Assembly (NCBI GenBank): GCA_945890645.1
Contig: CAMDCV010000003.1
Span: 62,001-126,000 of the forward strand
Direction of reading: 5' to 3'
DNA from: Akkermansia muciniphila
GTDB lineage: Bacteria; Verrucomicrobiota; Verrucomicrobiia; Verrucomicrobiales; Akkermansiaceae
DNA length: 64,000 nt
Shown: piece by piece, positions 4,201 through 28,869 of the stretch
How the letters are laid out: each line of letters opens with the position of its first letter
How positions within the stretch are numbered: the first letter of the stretch is position 1
Program-made: the position numbers and the translations under genes
Notes under the pieces: model-generated
Told to the model about the DNA's origin: nothing
The model's input: only the letters and a program-made list of their open reading frames with translations
Databases searched by the model: none

Positions 4201-6417
4201 ATCGCTCCCGGCGAGTCGGTGATTCTCATCGAAACGAACGATCTCGCCACAAAAGCAGCTCTTTTCCGCTCCAACTGGTTCGGTGCGAGTCCTCCTGTTG
4301 GGCTCCAAATTGGTGCTTATAGCGGTGGTGGCGTCGGCCTCAGCACCGGCGGTGACGGCGTGAACCTCTACGACTCGAAATCCCCCATTGCTGTTCGCCG
4401 CGCCAGTGTTAATTTTGGAATCGCTCCCTCAAGTGCGCCTTTCGCTACCTTTGATAACACGGCTGCTGCCGATGTGGCCACTATCTCCCTCAAGAGTGTC
4501 CCCGGGGTCAACGCAGCATTCATTGCAATCAATTCCGCCAATGAAGTCGGCTCGCCTGGCACGATCACCAGTGGCGGACCGACCGACTTCGCCGCTTGGC
4601 TTGCCGCCAACGGCTTCGCTTCCTTCGGTTTGGGTGCGGATACGGATAACGATGGCATACGTGATTCGTTAGAATATTTCTTCAATATGAATCCGAGCGC
4701 AGGCGGCAATTTCGGGAACATGCCTAAACTCCAGCCCAACAACGGCGCGTTGGAATTGGCCTTCACGCGCCTCACCGACACCGGTAGCGTCCTTGGTGAA
4801 CTCCAAGTATCTAGCGATTTGCATTCATGGACACCCGGCTTGCTTGATGTAGATTACGCCATCTCCTCGGCTATCGTCACCGACGACGAAACTGCTTTCA
4901 CCTACGCCCTTCCCGGCAGCGGCCCGTCAGATCCCGGAACCTCTCCGGTCTATCTGACTCCCAATCTGTCAGATCCAGTCGGTGCCTCGCTCGGCGGCGT
5001 TCGCGTCGTGAACGAAGGACTTGTTGGTGTCGGACGCCTCAGCGGTGATAATACCGACAGCTTCGGAGAAACCCAAGGTGCCGCGTCCGGTCTCTTCATT
5101 ACGAACTGGCGCCTTGATGCGGGCCTGCTGAAAGGCACTTTCAATGTGCTTCCTGATCGCGGCCATGGCGACGGCACTTCGAACTATGCCGCCCGCCTCC
5201 ACCGGGTTGACTTCACCTTTACGCCTTACTACGGAGTTGGCCCTGTTGCTCAGGGTCAGGTTTCCCCGAGCTATGTGGACACCACCAAGTTCACCTATCA
5301 AGATGGCCCGATCACGAAATTCACCACCGGACTCAATCCAATTCCGACAGGCAACATCACGCTATTCGGTCAGACGGTCGGCACCGCTACTGCTGCCAAC
5401 GGTCCCGGCGGCTCGCAACAAAGCCTGCTCTCCTTCGATGCCGAGGCTGTCCATTTGTTCGAAGACGGCTCCGGCTTCGTCTCGGACGAGTATGGCACCT
5501 ACATCGCTCGCTTCGACGCCACGAAGAAGATCACTGGCCTGACCCAACTCCCTGGAGCGGCCCAGCCGATTAAGAGCAACGCGCTTAACTTCGATTCCGT
5601 CGCCGCTCCAACGACCGGCCGCCGCAACAACCAGGGCCTTGAAGGCATGTCGGTCACGCCCGACGGCACGCGTCTCTTCGCCATGCTGCAAAGTGCCACC
5701 GTTCAGGACACCAATGGAAGCCAGCAGCAGACCCGCAACAACGCCCGCTTGTTTGTCTATGACATCGTCGGTGCGAACCGCGAGAACCCAGTGCTGGTCG
5801 GCGAGTATGTTGTGAAGCTCCCGCAAATCGACCTGAACAGCAATGGCTCCGGCGCTGACGGCACCGCCGCTCAGTCCGAAATCGTAGCACTCGGCAACAG
5901 CTCGTTCCTGATGCTGCCGCGCGATGGCAACGGCTTGGGCAAGTCCGGCTCCGCACCGATCCTGTTCAAGTCGGTGCAGCTCGTGGATTTTGCCTCCGCC
6001 ACCAACATCCTCGGGATGTTCGACGGAGTTATCCCCGTCAGCCCGCTCGGAGTTCTCGATTCCAACGTGAAAGCGGCTGCCACCGCGGAGATCATCAACA
6101 TGCTCGAACCGACCGACCTGGCGAAGTTTGGTTTGAACACGACCCTCCCTGCAAACTCCAACACGCTCAACGAGAAAATCGAAGGAATGGCGCTGGTGCC
6201 GGATATCTCGACTGAGCAGGCGAACGACTTCTTCCTCTTCGTCGCTAACGACAACGACTTCCAATCGTCCAACGTAATGATGCTCGACGCCGCCGGCACC
6301 GTTTCCACCAAAGGCAACGGTCAAGTCGGGGGAGTCACCAATGATGCCATGTTCTACGTCTATCGCCTCATCATCGATGCCAGTGGCAAGAAATTCTTCC
6401 GCTTCGATGTGGAGTAA
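1228..6417 (+). CDS. Giant secreted protein with SdiA-regulated-like propeller, two lamin-tail domains and a phytase-like esterase domain
   Basis: A 1729-aa exported protein starting with a signal peptide (residues 1-26, ending near VYAAPF). Visible parts in order: a Ser/Thr-rich beta region (30-340); an SdiA-regulated-like propeller (about 345-640) with [18 protein letters not shown]; a cadherin-like repeat (about 645-750); two tandem, clearly homologous lamin-tail domains (about 755-925 and 930-1110) each with DWFEVTNI and TGWK; a linker with [15 protein letters not shown] and an SSDLHSW module (about 1120-1235); and a C-terminal 'esterase-like activity of phytase' domain (about 1240-1725) with [13 protein letters not shown]. 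Family knowledge suggests a surface or secreted phosphoesterase-like protein, but substrate and activity are unknown. It has no PEP-CTERM tail. A Rho-independent terminator follows directly, so it is probably transcribed alone. Confidence 0.8.
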
Positions 6418-6439
6418 GATTTTTCCCATGCACCCATTC

Positions 6440-6472
6440 ACGGTCTTTCTCGCGAGGGAAAGGCCGTTTTTT
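6440..6472 (+). terminator. Rho-independent terminator of the giant phytase-like gene
   Basis: A 10-bp stem (acggtctttc paired with gaaaggccgt, one G-U pair) with a short loop is followed by six T residues, 23 bp after the stop codon of the preceding gene. Confidence 0.8.
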
Positions 6473-6526
6473 GTTAGCAAAAACCAAGGTTGCCAAATCT
6501 GCGTGCTTGGTGCAACTTTCCCTGCC

Positions 6527-7342
6527 ATGTGGACCACTGCCGCCGAGTTTGAAGATATCCGCTACGAGACGACCGATGCCGGAAGCATCGCCAAGATTAC
6601 CATCAATCGACCGGAGGTGCGCAATGCCTTTCGTCCAAAAACAGTGATGGAAATGCTCCAGGCCTTTGAGCTAGCGCATCAAGACCCGCATGTGGGCGTG
6701 ATTATCCTCACGGGCGAGGGTGACCTCGCTTTTTGCTCAGGAGGAGATCAAAAAGTTCGCGGCCACGCGGGCTATGTCGGCGATGACGGTGTACCCCGTC
6801 TCAATGTGCTCGATTTACAAAAAAAAATCCGCTCACTGCCCAAACCCGTCGTCGCGATGGTCGCGGGTTATGCGATCGGTGGCGGACATGTCTTGCACAT
6901 TGTTTGTGACCTAACAATCGCAGCGGAGAACGCACGCTTTGGTCAGACGGGCCCTAAGGTCGGCTCCTTCGATGGCGGCCTAGGTTCCAGTTACCTTGCC
7001 CGCATCGTGGGGCAAAAAAAAGCGCGGGAAATTTGGTATCTTTGTCGTCAATACGATGCCCAGCAAGCGCTCGATATGGGACTCGTGAACACCGTAGTGC
7101 CGCTCGCGGATTTAGAAAAAGAAACGCTGCAATGGTGTCGCGAAATGCTCGCCCATTCGCCGCTTGCCTTACGATGTCTGAAGTCCGCGCTGAACGCCGA
7201 TTGCGATGGCCAGATGGGGCTGCTCGATCTCGCGGGAAATGCGACACTGCTTTATTACATGAGCGAAGAAGGCAAAGAAGGCAAACAAGCGTTCCTTGAA
7301 AAACGTCAGCCTGATTTTAGCAAGTTTCCGCGAGTACCGTGA
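6527..7342 (+). CDS. menB: 1,4-dihydroxy-2-naphthoyl-CoA synthase MenB
   Basis: A 271-aa crotonase-fold enzyme that closes the ring of o-succinylbenzoyl-CoA to give 1,4-dihydroxy-2-naphthoyl-CoA in menaquinone synthesis (cytoplasm). MenB-specific signatures are present: SGGDQKVRG in the oxyanion-hole region, the [11 protein letters not shown] helix and [13 protein letters not shown], which distinguish it from ordinary enoyl-CoA hydratases. The reading frame is open upstream to 6341, inside the previous gene, but the ATG at 6527 gives the usual family length and lies after the terminator. No Shine-Dalgarno sequence precedes it. It sits 89 bp upstream of menA in the same direction, which supports a menaquinone operon. 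Confidence 0.95.
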
Positions 7343-7344
7343 TG

Positions 7345-7372
7345 GAATAGTGAATGGTGAGTAGTGAAGAGT
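7345..7372 (+). repeat. Left arm: four tandem heptamers (gaatagt type)
   Basis: Four 7-bp units (gaatagt, gaatggt, gagtagt, gaagagt) start 2 bp after the menB stop codon. They are the reverse complement type of the units at 7394-7428, so the two arrays can fold on each other, leaving one heptad (gagtagt) bulged. Confidence 0.85.
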
Positions 7373-7393
7373 GAAATTTTTCTGACTGCATCT

Positions 7394-7428
7394 ACCATTC
7401 ACTCTTCACCATTCTTCATTCTTCATTC
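7394..7428 (+). repeat. Right arm: five tandem heptamers (accattc type) ending just before the menA start
   Basis: Five 7-bp units (accattc, actcttc, accattc, ttcattc, ttcattc) end 3 bp before the menA ATG and occupy the position where a ribosome binding site would be. Together with the array at 7345-7372 they form an inverted repeat spaced by about 20 bp. Confidence 0.85.
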
Positions 7429-7431
7429 TTC

Positions 7432-8304
7432 ATGCACTCCTGGTTATTAGCGGCACGACCGAAGACTTTACCCGCCGCGATCGTGCCGGTGTGGGCGGGG
7501 TGCGTGTTGTCTTGGAAGCTGCAAGGTTCATGGAATCCATGGCTGGCCTTCTGCACAGTTGCTGGGGCCATTTGTATCCAGATTGCGACGAATTTTTTCA
7601 ATGATGCCATTGATGCCGAAAAAGGTGCTGATACCGCCAAGCGCCTTGGTCCCGTTCGTGTCACGGCTTCGGGCCTTCTGTCGCGCCGCTCTGTGTTTTC
7701 TGCTGCTACGATATTCCTAGTACTTGCGTTGGCTTGCGGCGTGGTGCTGTATCAAGCAGTGGGCTGGCCTATCCTTGCTATCGGAATTCCCTCTCTTTAT
7801 CTTGCATATGGGTACACAGGTGGGCCGTTTCCCCTAGCCTATCGCGGCATGGGTGAGTTGTTTGTTGTCGCATTTTTTGGGATCATTGCGGTGGGCGGCA
7901 CAGTGTTGATACAGACCGGTCAATGGCGTGATGAAGCGATGCTTCTTGGCTTTCAAGTTGGACTGCTCTCAGCGGTTTTGATCTCCATCAATAACCTGCG
8001 CGATCGGGCCGAAGATGCCACCACTGGCAAGAACACCATGGCCGTGCGGCTCGGGCCGCGTGGTGCGCGCATTTTAATTTGGCTGGAAATCAAGGTTGCT
8101 GCCTTTTGTGGATTATTGTGGCTTAAGCACCAATTACCATGGCTCACGCTGGCAACAATTCCGCTGTGGACGCTGGGAATGTATCTCTGCTTCTGCATTT
8201 TCACTCGCCCCGCGGACAAAGGCATGAACAGTCTGCTCGCGCTTGGTGGAGTGATACTCATCCTCTTCGCCCTATGCTTCCATATTGCCGCTTTGCAGGG
8301 ATGA
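7432..8304 (+). CDS. menA: 1,4-dihydroxy-2-naphthoate polyprenyltransferase MenA
   Basis: A 290-aa integral membrane prenyltransferase of the UbiA superfamily that attaches the isoprenoid tail to 1,4-dihydroxy-2-naphthoate, giving demethylmenaquinone. The first Mg-pyrophosphate motif is NFFNDAIDAEKGAD (about residues 58-71) and the second Asp-rich region is NNLRDRAEDATTGKNT (about 183-198). Eight or nine hydrophobic segments are evident. The N-terminal WLLAARPKTLPAA is typical of MenA rather than UbiA. It follows menB in the same orientation, and the 5' end is preceded by heptamer repeats instead of a Shine-Dalgarno sequence. The neighbouring pair makes the pathway assignment firm. Confidence 0.95.
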   Translation: MHSWLLAARPKTLPAAIVPVWAGCVLSWKLQGSWNPWLAFCTVAGAICIQIATNFFNDAIDAEKGADTAKRLGPVRVTASGLLSRRSVFSAATIFLVLALACGVVLYQAVGWPILAIGIPSLYLAYGYTGGPFPLAYRGMGELFVVAFFGIIAVGGTVLIQTGQWRDEAMLLGFQVGLLSAVLISINNLRDRAEDATTGKNTMAVRLGPRGARILIWLEIKVAAFCGLLWLKHQLPWLTLATIPLWTLGMYLCFCIFTRPADKGMNSLLALGGVILILFALCFHIAALQG

Positions 8305-8359
8305 ATCATTTTTACTCTTGCGCACGAGTCACGAATTCGAGAAGTTGTGTTTAACCCAA

Positions 8360-10114
8360 ATGACCACTTCGTTTATAAAATTTCGATATGCTAGGTGTTA
8401 TACTCTCATCTTTTATGCGTCACTGAGTGGCGGGATGATGCAGTTCTCCCACGCGATCGTGAGCAACCTTGGTGGGACTTCTATTTTTAATGGCGTTTAC
8501 ATCAATGAAGTTTTGGGGGCGGATGCATTTTATAACCAAGGGTTTGGCGGACAGGGCGTGGTCGTGGCAAACATTGAAGCGGGCACCATCTGGGCGGGGC
8601 ATGAAGCGATGCAAGGCCAAGTTTCCCAAACACTCTATGATCCTGCGATCATGGGCACACAGTTGGGGCAGGTGGATTGGCATGCGACCATGGTCGGTCA
8701 TGCGATAGCTGGCACGGGAATTTATGCCCACCAGGTGGGCATTGCGCCAGCTGCGGAAATTTGGTCTGGCGCGATTGCCACCGGATGGAGTGGCGCGCCA
8801 ACTGAACAATACAGCGGCACCTTCAGCATTTCCGATGCGAGCTTTCTCTATCCCTATCGCACGGCGATGCAGACGGGAATCAACGGGGTACGGGCGGATG
8901 TGATGAACAGCAGTTGGGGCTATGGCGACCCTGCTGGGGCATATCAGGAAACGATTGCCATCGATGCGATGATGCGAAGCAGTGGAGTCATCGGAGTTTT
9001 TTCCGCGGGCAACTCTGGACCGGGAGCCAATACGGTGGGTGGTCCAGGTAGTGGCTACAACGGCATCACGGTCGGCGCGCTGACAAATACGGCGGAAAAT
9101 CTTAGTTATAACACGGTAGCGGATTTCTCCAGTCGTGGCTTGAGTGATGCTTATAATCCGCAGACGAATCAATTGATTAGCAATGCTCGGGCCACTGTGG
9201 ACATCGTGGCACCAGGTGATAATCTGACATTGGCCTTTTATGGAGGCATGACGGGTGGTCACATCGCGGGCACGGATCCGACTGCTGGAAATGGAACATT
9301 TTATGTGCCGGGCATGAGTGGCACGAGCTTTTCGGCACCGATTGTTGCGGGCGCCGCTGCCCTGATGGTCGGGGCGGGTAAGGCCTATGGCATTGATGAA
9401 ATGATCCACCCCTTGGTGGTGAAAGCGACTCTTATGGCAGGGGCTTCGACTACACTGGGGTGGAACAACGGTCAGTACCTCGATGGTTCGGTGATTCGAA
9501 CGAGCCAAGCGCTCGACCTTGCCGCAGGTGCAGGCGCGCTTAACTTGGGCACCGCTTACGATATCTTCATCGGTAATTCGACTTTGCTTGCGCCGTCAAT
9601 TTATGCCACCGATGGCAACAACACGCTGGGCATTAGTGGGTTCGATGGCGCAACGGGTGTCGCACGCGCCGGGTGGGATCTCGGTGGTCTGCAAGGTGGC
9701 GCTAACATCTACACATTGGCGGAGACCATGGCCGCGGGAAGTCAGTTTTCCGCTGTGTTGACGTGGCATGCCGAGCGTGGTTTTGGCGTGGATTTGATGA
9801 GTGCCGAAGATATCGCGTTGTCCAATTTATCGCTGGAACTGTGGTTCCTGGATGCGATACTTGGCGATCGTCTGGTCGGACGTTCGGAGTCCCCGTGGGG
9901 CACAACCGAGCATCTGCGTTTTTCTCTAACAGAAACTGGCCAGTATCAAATGCGCGTTGTGTGGGACGGACAAAATTACAACATGGCAGAGACGCCCGAC
10001 CTGTTCACGGAATACGGTCTCGCTTGGCAATTTGCGCCCGTGCCAGAACCTTGGACCATCAGCATGACATGCTACGGGCTTGCTGTGATTGCATTGCGTC
10101 GTCGCCGTAATTGA
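8360..10114 (+). CDS. Secreted subtilase-like (S8) protein with PEP-CTERM anchor
   Basis: A 584-aa exported protein with a signal-like N-terminus and a C-terminal PEP-CTERM signal (VPEP, hydrophobic stretch, RRRR), so it is probably processed by an exosortase not found in this window. The body is a subtilisin-like domain: His108 in DWHATMVGHAIAG, the oxyanion Asn218 in FSAGNSGPGAN and Ser323 in MSGTSFSAP. The position normally taken by the catalytic Asp reads VVVANIEAGTIW, with Glu73 in its place. The frame is open back to 8285, overlapping menA, but the ATG at 8360 leaves a sensible leader. It may be a divergent peptidase or an inactive binding relative. Confidence 0.82.
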   Translation: MTTSFIKFRYARCYTLIFYASLSGGMMQFSHAIVSNLGGTSIFNGVYINEVLGADAFYNQGFGGQGVVVANIEAGTIWAGHEAMQGQVSQTLYDPAIMGTQLGQVDWHATMVGHAIAGTGIYAHQVGIAPAAEIWSGAIATGWSGAPTEQYSGTFSISDASFLYPYRTAMQTGINGVRADVMNSSWGYGDPAGAYQETIAIDAMMRSSGVIGVFSAGNSGPGANTVGGPGSGYNGITVGALTNTAENLSYNTVADFSSRGLSDAYNPQTNQLISNARATVDIVAPGDNLTLAFYGGMTGGHIAGTDPTAGNGTFYVPGMSGTSFSAPIVAGAAALMVGAGKAYGIDEMIHPLVVKATLMAGASTTLGWNNGQYLDGSVIRTSQALDLAAGAGALNLGTAYDIFIGNSTLLAPSIYATDGNNTLGISGFDGATGVARAGWDLGGLQGGANIYTLAETMAAGSQFSAVLTWHAERGFGVDLMSAEDIALSNLSLELWFLDAILGDRLVGRSESPWGTTEHLRFSLTETGQYQMRVVWDGQNYNMAETPDLFTEYGLAWQFAPVPEPWTISMTCYGLAVIALRRRRN

Positions 10115-23205: not shown

Positions 23206-23259
23206 AATTCTGCAAATTCTGTCAATTCTGTCAATTCTGTCAATTCTGTCAATTCTGTC
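23206..23259. repeat. 9-bp tandem repeat (aattctgtc x5 plus one variant)
   Basis: Five exact copies of aattctgtc (23215-23259) are preceded by one variant aattctgca (23206-23214). It starts 33 bp downstream of a stop codon, outside any gene. It has no spacers, so it is not a CRISPR array. Confidence 0.97.
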
Positions 23260-28395: not shown

Positions 28396-28869
28396 ATGGA
28401 TATCTATGTGGGCAATTTGCCCTTCTCGGCTACTGAAGAAGAAATTACAGAACTCTTCAGCCCTTACGGCACCGTGGAACGTGTCAAAATCGTCACCGAT
28501 CGTGAAACAGGCCGCCCTCGTGGTTTTGCCTTCGTTACCATGGGCGAAGTGGCGGGAGCGAATGCAGCGATTGCCGCATTGAATGACCAGGACTACCAAG
28601 GACGTGCCTTGCGTATCAACGCAGCAGAAGCTCGTGAACCCCGCACTGGCGGTGGTGGCGGCGGCGGCGGTGGCTACAAAGGCGGCGGCGGCGGTGGCGG
28701 CTACAAAGGTGGCGGCGGCGGTGGCGGCGGCTACAAAGGCGGCGGCGGCGGTGGCTATAAAGGCGGCGGCGGTGGCGGCGGCTATAAAGGCGGTGGCGGC
28801 GGCGGCGGTGATCGTCGTGGCGGTGGCGGCGGCTATAAAGGCGGCGGCGGCGGTGGCGATTGGGGTTAA
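28396..28869 (+). CDS. RRM RNA-binding protein with Gly-rich tail
   Basis: A 157-aa protein with a single N-terminal RNA-recognition motif (residues 1-78): RNP2 IYVGNLPF and RNP1 RGFAFVTM are both intact. From residue 84 on it is a Gly-rich tail built of repeats of the type YKGGGGGGG, interrupted by one RRGGGGG unit. Bacterial single-RRM proteins of this kind are cold-induced RNA chaperone candidates, as in cyanobacteria. The repeats make the DNA (28643-28866) prone to length change. The gene has a ~195-bp leader from the divergent Gfo/Idh gene and ends at a strong terminator. Confidence 0.93.
   Translation: MDIYVGNLPFSATEEEITELFSPYGTVERVKIVTDRETGRPRGFAFVTMGEVAGANAAIAALNDQDYQGRALRINAAEAREPRTGGGGGGGGGYKGGGGGGGYKGGGGGGGGYKGGGGGGYKGGGGGGGYKGGGGGGGDRRGGGGGYKGGGGGGDWG

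Follow-up and report, generated by a model that had tools for sequence, protein, structure and literature searches.

Why does the leader of menA consist of 7-bp repeats throughout, and does the hairpin that these repeats form control menA, or did it reach this site as something else? In the window, by which we mean the whole stretch of 64,000 nucleotides that was analysed, the stop codon of menB (TGA, 7340-7342) and the start codon of menA (ATG at 7432) are separated by an 89-bp gap with no ORF inside. The features of the locus are as follows:

6527..7342, + strand: menB, the upstream gene (TIGR01929, 458.6 bits; cut-off 342.7)
7343..7431, + strand: the entire intercistronic hairpin element, from the menB stop to the menA start (sequence, RNA fold)
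7345..7375, + strand: left arm, purine-rich, with units GAATAGT (7345-7351), GAATGGT (7352-7358), GAGTAGT (7359-7365), GAAGAGT (7366-7372) and GAA (7373-7375) (sequence, TRF, 30-base match)
7376..7393, + strand: apical loop region (sequence, minimum-energy fold)
7394..7431, + strand: right arm, pyrimidine-rich, with units ACCATTC (7394-7400), ACTCTTC (7401-7407), ACCATTC (7408-7414), TTCATTC (7415-7421), TTCATTC (7422-7428) and TTC (7429-7431) (sequence, TRF, fold)
7432..8304, + strand: menA, the downstream gene, its start abutting the right arm (TIGR00751, 161.2 bits; cut-off 102.15)

With both family models above their cut-offs, the gene names given in the original prediction were upheld. 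The left arm begins 2 bp after the menB stop, the last right-arm heptamer ends 3 bp upstream of the menA ATG, and both arms were called by Tandem Repeats Finder (TRF). The predicted layout, four heptamers (7345-7372) facing five (7394-7428) that end 3 bp 5' of the ATG, can be read directly from the letters, as can the claim that the menA leader and its ribosome-binding region are repeat throughout. The prediction that one heptad would be bulged did not hold in that form: most of the spare heptad falls within the apical loop of the minimum-energy fold. A degenerate TGA-heptamer pattern, composed after the repeats had been seen, matched three times in the 64-kb window when one mismatch at most was allowed, all three in the menB-menA gap, compared to a mean of 0.00 matches across 100 shuffles of the window.

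As RNA, positions 7330-7445 folded with -38.7 kcal/mol, compared to -23.9 +/- 3.3 kcal/mol for 200 shuffles (z -4.53; 0/200 as good), and the gap alone, folded as 92 nt, gave a z of -3.77. The stem of the minimum-energy fold comprises 27 pairs with small symmetric interior loops and a 12-bp core, GTGAAGAGTGAA/TTCACTCTTCAC. As single-stranded DNA the same stretch folded less strongly (6/200 shuffles equal or better), and with a z of just -2.17 a DNA cruciform at this site was rejected. A simple scan of 7200-7600 found no promoter-like site. The family heptamers contain TGA, and, 7 not being a multiple of 3, an array puts stops in all three frames; among the arrays considered (L105, L053, L050 and window 7340-7375), some start at the upstream gene's own stop.

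S23 genes framed by inverted arrays

PF05635 is the S23/IVP four-helix-bundle protein, the ORF of 23S rRNA intervening sequences (IVSs). The window's genome has three matches to this family (L105, L106 and L107) and, by eye, each of the three genes has inverted short-period arrays on its two sides, the sequence differing from locus to locus: L105 has TGA-heptamers, L106 has heptamers of GAG type and L107 has octamers. On contig C2, a pair of arrays of the menA heptamer family, at 158701 and 159115, face inward around a PF05635 ORF (83.3 bits). In the menA hairpin, 30 bases of the left arm (7346-7375) are identical to the reverse complement of the L105 right arm. The flanks of the three genes scored 20, 35 and 28 for complementarity, where controls reach 16 in 15/529 genes. 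In the strict repeat test, period 7 was passed only by the L105 right flank, and the L107 right flank passed for period 8. No trace of an S23 ORF was recognised by eye in the apical loop of the menA hairpin (7376-7393). At L106 (C24:38550-38858) the PF05635 match between the GAG-type heptamer arrays contains an in-frame TAG, and from its sequence this locus looks like a decaying copy.

We then compared S23 loci of the order. PF05635 was matched in 45 of its 57 genomes, in 43 of them above the curated cut-off. The relatives' set comprised 73 loci, namely the 33 first examined (3 of the own genome) and the next 40 in table order; at least 73 exist, and the 73 are not independent, at least 11 lying in the same metK-ahcY gap of different species (ten by motif, plus L141, assigned because its place matches the insert at L201). 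Here and below, metK, ahcY, cysD, cysN, carA, carB, accB and accC are names that we take the genes to have, judged by their translations or flanks rather than by a family search. Complementarity was scored by local alignment between the upstream 180 bp and the reverse-complemented downstream 200 bp, and 529 ordinary genes of two sampled genomes served as controls. A score of at least 16 was reached by 56/72 S23 loci (L163, with a short flank, was left out), compared to those 15 control genes and to 6.1% of 4844 pairs of swapped flanks; a score of at least 21 was reached by 37/72 loci, 1/529 control genes and 1.4% of the swapped pairs. Swapped-flank scores went up to 95, probably from L127, which was excluded from the swapped pairs and kept among the 72; the swapped maximum was then 49.

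The same flanks are periodic. A strict scan requiring 17 of 21 matching positions gave 6 hits at lag 7 in 378 gaps, and for the S23 flanks this threshold was replaced by 16 of 21. Period 7 was found at 37/73 S23 loci compared to 23/529 control genes; other periods were 14 (23 loci), 21 (8), 16 (7), 8 (6) and 3 (5), with every remaining lag from 3 to 21 at no more than 3 of the 73 loci. Counted per genome, 30/34 had at least one complementary locus and 23/34 at least one with period 7. Distal flanks had period 7 in 1/70 cases. In the relatives' set purines prevail in the 60 bases upstream of the S23 start (0.592 compared to 0.480 in controls) and pyrimidines in the 80 bases that follow the stop (0.395 purine compared to 0.475), and the menA hairpin has the same purine-5'/pyrimidine-3' polarity. 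Both neighbours were co-directional with the S23 gene at 49 of the 71 loci where both were called, compared to 43/109 small control genes; these counts, like the intergenic ones, are rough, as genes were called as greedy ORFs with some antisense ORFs mistaken, and control neighbours came from a different routine than S23 neighbours. At L127 the S23 gene lies antisense in a gap read as cysD-cysN, so the operon orientation is common and not absolute.

The association extends to other phyla. From GTDB we took the best 80 of 585 PF05635 loci in named genomes, 79 of them usable (L234 was left out). Among these, period 7 was present in 51/79 and complementarity of at least 16 in 51/79, compared to 5.1% of 6066 swapped pairs; lag 14 was found in 43 loci, lag 21 in 25 and each lag from 8 to 13 in between 1 and 3 loci. 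Four loci duplicate the relatives' set (L208, L213, L236 and L266; L245 is also L289), and leaving these four out of the best-80 set gave period 7 in 48/75 and complementarity in 47/75. Outside Verrucomicrobiota, the figures for the best 80 of 585 were 40/64 and 39/64. With phylum labels assigned by hand, period 7 occurred in 16/22 loci of Bacteroidota, 11/21 of Gammaproteobacteria, 11/15 of Verrucomicrobiota and 4/9 of Bacillota within the best-80 set; its one locus from Campylobacterota had neither period 7 nor complementarity. Distal flanks of this best-80 set had period 7 in 1/72 cases, and its purine share was 0.583 upstream and 0.487 downstream, so that only the upstream half of the polarity holds.

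In Lysobacteraceae, the gammaproteobacterial family of L245, PF05635 was found in 84/198 genomes and period 7 in 21 of the 30 loci examined, with arrays of GGGACTC, GGGACCG and similar types; many of these loci are in gaps taken to be carA-carB or accB-accC. Here complementarity shows a small excess (at least 16 in 19/30 compared to 35.6% of swapped flanks; at least 21 in 7/30 compared to 6.9%), because the arrays are alike between loci. The word GGGAATC occurs once or twice in the flanks of 4/30 of these loci (L308, L310, L315 and L316).

A gap in three states and the origin of the menA hairpin

The metK-ahcY gap offers a comparison of one site across species. ahcY was found in 53/57 genomes and 30 loci were examined, 26 of which had both metK and ahcY. 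An S23-sized insert, giving a gap of 489-582 bp, was present in 9/26 (G009, G001, G041, G005, G031, G028, G019, G045 and G051), with arms whose sequence differs between species. Two of the 26 have arms without the ORF: 32 exact bases of the G007 gap (150 bp) recur in the right arm of the S23 element of G009 and G001, and the G021 gap (114 bp) has 25 exact bases in common with G028. The other 15 gaps measure 22 to 108 bp, that of the window's own genome 50 bp. These shared arm words indicate that the S23 element and the ORF-less unit occupy the same site in different species, and we propose, from the sequences, that such ORF-less units represent the state of the menA hairpin. Their folds give reason for caution: that of the G007 gap is weak (z -2.09), and the best one for G021 (z -3.23) joins other stretches instead of the two arms. 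S23-bearing G009, G001 and G005 straddle G007 in menA identity to the window's species (same genus), and the two ORF-less gaps hint, weakly, that the ORF was lost rather than gained between the arms. G004 and G006 have other short hairpins in this gap (z -4.24 and -3.10), and at L179, L180, L184 and L194 another short repeat or palindrome (GATCTGAC/GATCNGACC words) replaces the heptamer element.

A link between an ORF-less site and S23 arms within one genome was seen three times. Besides the menA hairpin and L105, G025 has, by eye, a GGGTTCA hairpin without an ORF on the 3' side of menA (L029) and an S23 gene flanked by the same GGGTTCA heptamers (L130). In G009 the menB-menA spacer, which folds poorly, contains CAGACATAAGAC, a word that also occurs in the flanks of the S23 gene of G009 (L002, L122).

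We lean towards reading the menA hairpin as an S23/IVS-type element in mRNA, in a copy or relic that has no ORF. Such a unit would consist of a left array of ~7-bp repeats, often an S23 (PF05635) gene, and a reverse-complementary right array; it would be small and selfish, and would sit between a stop and the next start, mostly of co-directional genes. The architecture, the 30-base word, the statistical tie of S23 to heptamer arrays in several phyla, and one gap with ORF-bearing, ORF-less and element-free states are what we observed, and we infer that the unit is mobile.

A different account, which we hold to be unlikely, makes the arrays primary: they would arise by slippage and spread by recombination or some unknown copying, and S23 genes would merely land in array-rich gaps or bind the arrays. 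The distribution of arrays in the window's genome bears on it. The original prediction had suggested looking for the same heptamers at other starts, and by eye they do precede some further starts in the genome. With one mismatch allowed, the heptamer pattern gave 40 overlapping matches, compared to 10 for a reversed control pattern; the 40 group into 14 sites, several of which, by eye, begin right after a stop or end right before an ATG. In a survey covering 464 kb of the window's genome and 240 kb from its relative G009, period 7 or 14 was the largest class of tandem arrays in called-intergenic DNA (17/38 with period up to 31, one stretch inside menB being counted as intergenic by the greedy ORF calls), while in coding stretches it accounted for 3/93 arrays, 74/93 having periods divisible by three. 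As dispersed tandem 7-bp units between genes, the family belongs with the heptameric intergenic repeats (STRR-like). Among the 13 other family sites an inverted partner was found for the S23 pair (counted once), for two clear cases (L066 and L070) and for the borderline L072; the rest are single arrays by a partner search of 300 bp each way, which misses the S23 pair, ~384 bp apart.

That single arrays outnumber inverted pairs in the window's genome agrees with arrays that come first, as does the abundance of heptamer repeats elsewhere, for which the main texts of PMC4679880 and PMC4692102 report no link to S23. However, the two arms at a given S23 locus are far more complementary to each other than swapped flanks are, distal S23 flanks seldom have arrays, and TGA-heptamers are fewer where S23 is absent from the genome (median 1, n=8, compared to 15, n=30; Mann-Whitney U test, p=0.003). 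The TGA-heptamer count correlates with S23 (Spearman 0.34, p=0.03), and more strongly with genome size (rho 0.49). The single arrays would be remains with one arm left, or else arrays that spread independently.

Repeats of other kinds were also seen. Window positions 23206-23259, called intergenic, hold six tandem copies of the nonamer AATTCTGTC (TRF score 94), and words related to it adjoin a heptamer array elsewhere in the genome, on contig C53. A long GGC-rich array of 24-27-bp units spans window positions 28648-28858; if coding, it would be a glycine-rich repeat.

The original prediction was that slippage could tune MenA against MenB; in this reading the hairpin is a selected control of menA translation, adjusted by heptamer number. 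The idea agrees with a stable stem and with a menA leader made up of repeats alone, the last of which stops 3 bp short of the ATG, and heptamer number does differ among Coxiella strains in their IVS (PMC4990558). The comparison among species speaks against it. In the order, 38 genomes proved to have menA, and we examined 30 of the loci. menB lies close upstream (gap of 214 bp at most) in 12/30, and in three further loci of the 30 a menB match lies more than 1 kb upstream. Only one of the 12 species with a close menB, the window's own, has the heptamer array before menA. In seven of the 12 the gap is 28 bp at most or the genes overlap, and in four it contains other sequence (G009, 112 bp; G001, 102 bp; G004, 105 bp; G002, 214 bp), which folded better than shuffles in G004 (z -3.15) and not in G009 (0.45), G001 (-0.08) or G002 (-0.17). 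A conserved leader specific to menA was rejected on this count, and the presence of the array in 1/12 species points instead to its acquisition, or the replacement of other sequence, in one lineage. Since the array is absent from the 11 other species with a close menB, the same family is dispersed over other genes, and arrays of the same kind frame S23 genes, the evidence argues for an element rather than for menA control. Slippage tuning of MenA is possible but unsupported, and a selected leader seems to us quite improbable. A heptamer hairpin between genes, like the one upstream of menA, has not necessarily been selected as a regulator of its gene.

A palindrome mobilised by a Y1 (RAYT-type) or other transposase, as a REP/REPIN or a MITE, is a very remote prospect. 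The genome has eight Y1_Tnp matches, some of them partial, and three have complementary flanks, but none of the eight passes the period-7 test or has the TGA-heptamer words that were tried within 300 bp; the REPIN/RAYT association was rejected, with no heptamer arrays within 300 bp of any of the eight matches. In REP/REPIN sequences, a short palindrome has GTAG or CGTC as a tag on one of its ends (PMC3733652). The three Y1 transposase genes with complementary flanks and no heptamer arrays (L318, L319 and L320; scores of 23, 42 and 47 over 300 bp) are candidate REP-type systems in their own right. An intrinsic terminator or a known structured RNA between menB and menA is scarcely credible despite the strong hairpin, as a simple consensus scan (G+C-rich stem followed by a T run) found 0 sites in 7200-7600 and no Rfam family reached its gathering score in 6400-8400 (best mir-3136, 25.5 of 86 bits).

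Relation to known systems

Several known systems share one trait or another with the menA hairpin. The Avd proteins of diversity-generating retroelements are a four-helix-bundle family related to the S23 fold. RVT_1 was matched in 26/57 genomes, the window's included, and 21 of the 45 S23-bearing genomes had no match; a reverse-transcriptase partner of S23, on the pattern of the Avd retroelements, was rejected on this ground. In the P6b element of the Nostoc tRNA-Leu intron, complementary heptad arrays form a heptanucleotide hairpin whose stem grows by repeats. P6b differs from the menA hairpin in lying inside a group I intron, and to our knowledge it has no S23 gene.

The arrays resemble the heptameric repeats of Beggiatoaceae, Xanthomonas and Nostoc and the STRR of cyanobacteria, which are likewise heptameric repeats, in being intergenic tandem heptamers near starts or stops; they differ in being tied to S23 genes. 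TAACTGA repeats are described for Beggiatoaceae in the part of MacGregor's paper that treats them (PMC4679880), and GGGAATC/GGGGATT repeats for Xanthomonas and Nostoc in the corresponding part of Rehm et al. (PMC4692102), with 70-75 convergent inverted pairs of GGGAATC per Xanthomonas genome; the same part states that no detailed literature is devoted to heptameric repeats. A search of the main texts of both papers for S23, four helix and intervening sequence gave no occurrence. Among the open-access papers that our searches reached, we found no report of S23 genes in protein-gene gaps framed by inverted heptamer arrays, and S23 and heptamers came up together only for the Coxiella rRNA IVS (PMC4990558).

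The closest likeness is with the 23S rRNA IVSs. Their complementary termini form a long stem, as do the 27 pairs at menA and the complementary flanks of 56/72 S23 loci, with the S23 ORF between them in related loci. The menA copy differs in that it lies between menB and menA instead of inside an rRNA gene, and in that it holds no S23/IVP ORF, PF05635 ORFs being found at the 73 other loci examined. Many rRNA IVSs are also without the S23/IVP ORF, and Leptospira, too, has a 23S rRNA IVS with an S23p/IVP ORF. The elements read here lie between protein genes; the IVSs described in the relevant part of PMC4990558 lie in rRNA genes, from whose 23S transcripts they are excised by RNase III. According to the same source, the IVS of Coxiella burnetii has its S23p ORF in a long stem that RNase III cuts in vitro, with GACAGAT heptamers just 5' of the S23p ATG in 2 or 3 units depending on the strain; in its authors' view S23p is probably not made in vivo, and what 23S IVSs do and where they come from is still not clear (PMC4990558).

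Read as a relic of such an element, the menA hairpin would behave as follows. In the menB-menA mRNA the arms would pair into the stem of ~27 pairs, which RNase III could cleave in the way it does the stem of 23S rRNA IVSs; because of the Coxiella precedent, the hairpin is probably an RNase III substrate. Cleavage would separate menB and menA into distinct messages, with menA translated from the cleaved leader. The element would be a passenger, and any effect on MenA a side effect.

A broader view is tentative, and we regard it as rather doubtful in its full extent. S23/IVP genes may mark a pan-bacterial class of selfish elements that act at the RNA level. These would settle between the stop of one operon gene and the start of the next, have inverted arrays in a 7-bp register as their borders, and be excised from mRNA in the manner of IVSs from rRNA. 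The heptameric repeats of Beggiatoaceae, Xanthomonas, Nostoc and others would then be largely ORF-less or one-armed remains of them, and the 7-bp period would come from the S23 pentamer as it binds or copies the arms. The measured tie of heptamer arrays to S23 genes, for its part, joins the puzzle of the heptamer repeats and that of the 23S IVSs in one question that can be tested: does the S23 protein act on heptamer hairpins in mRNA?
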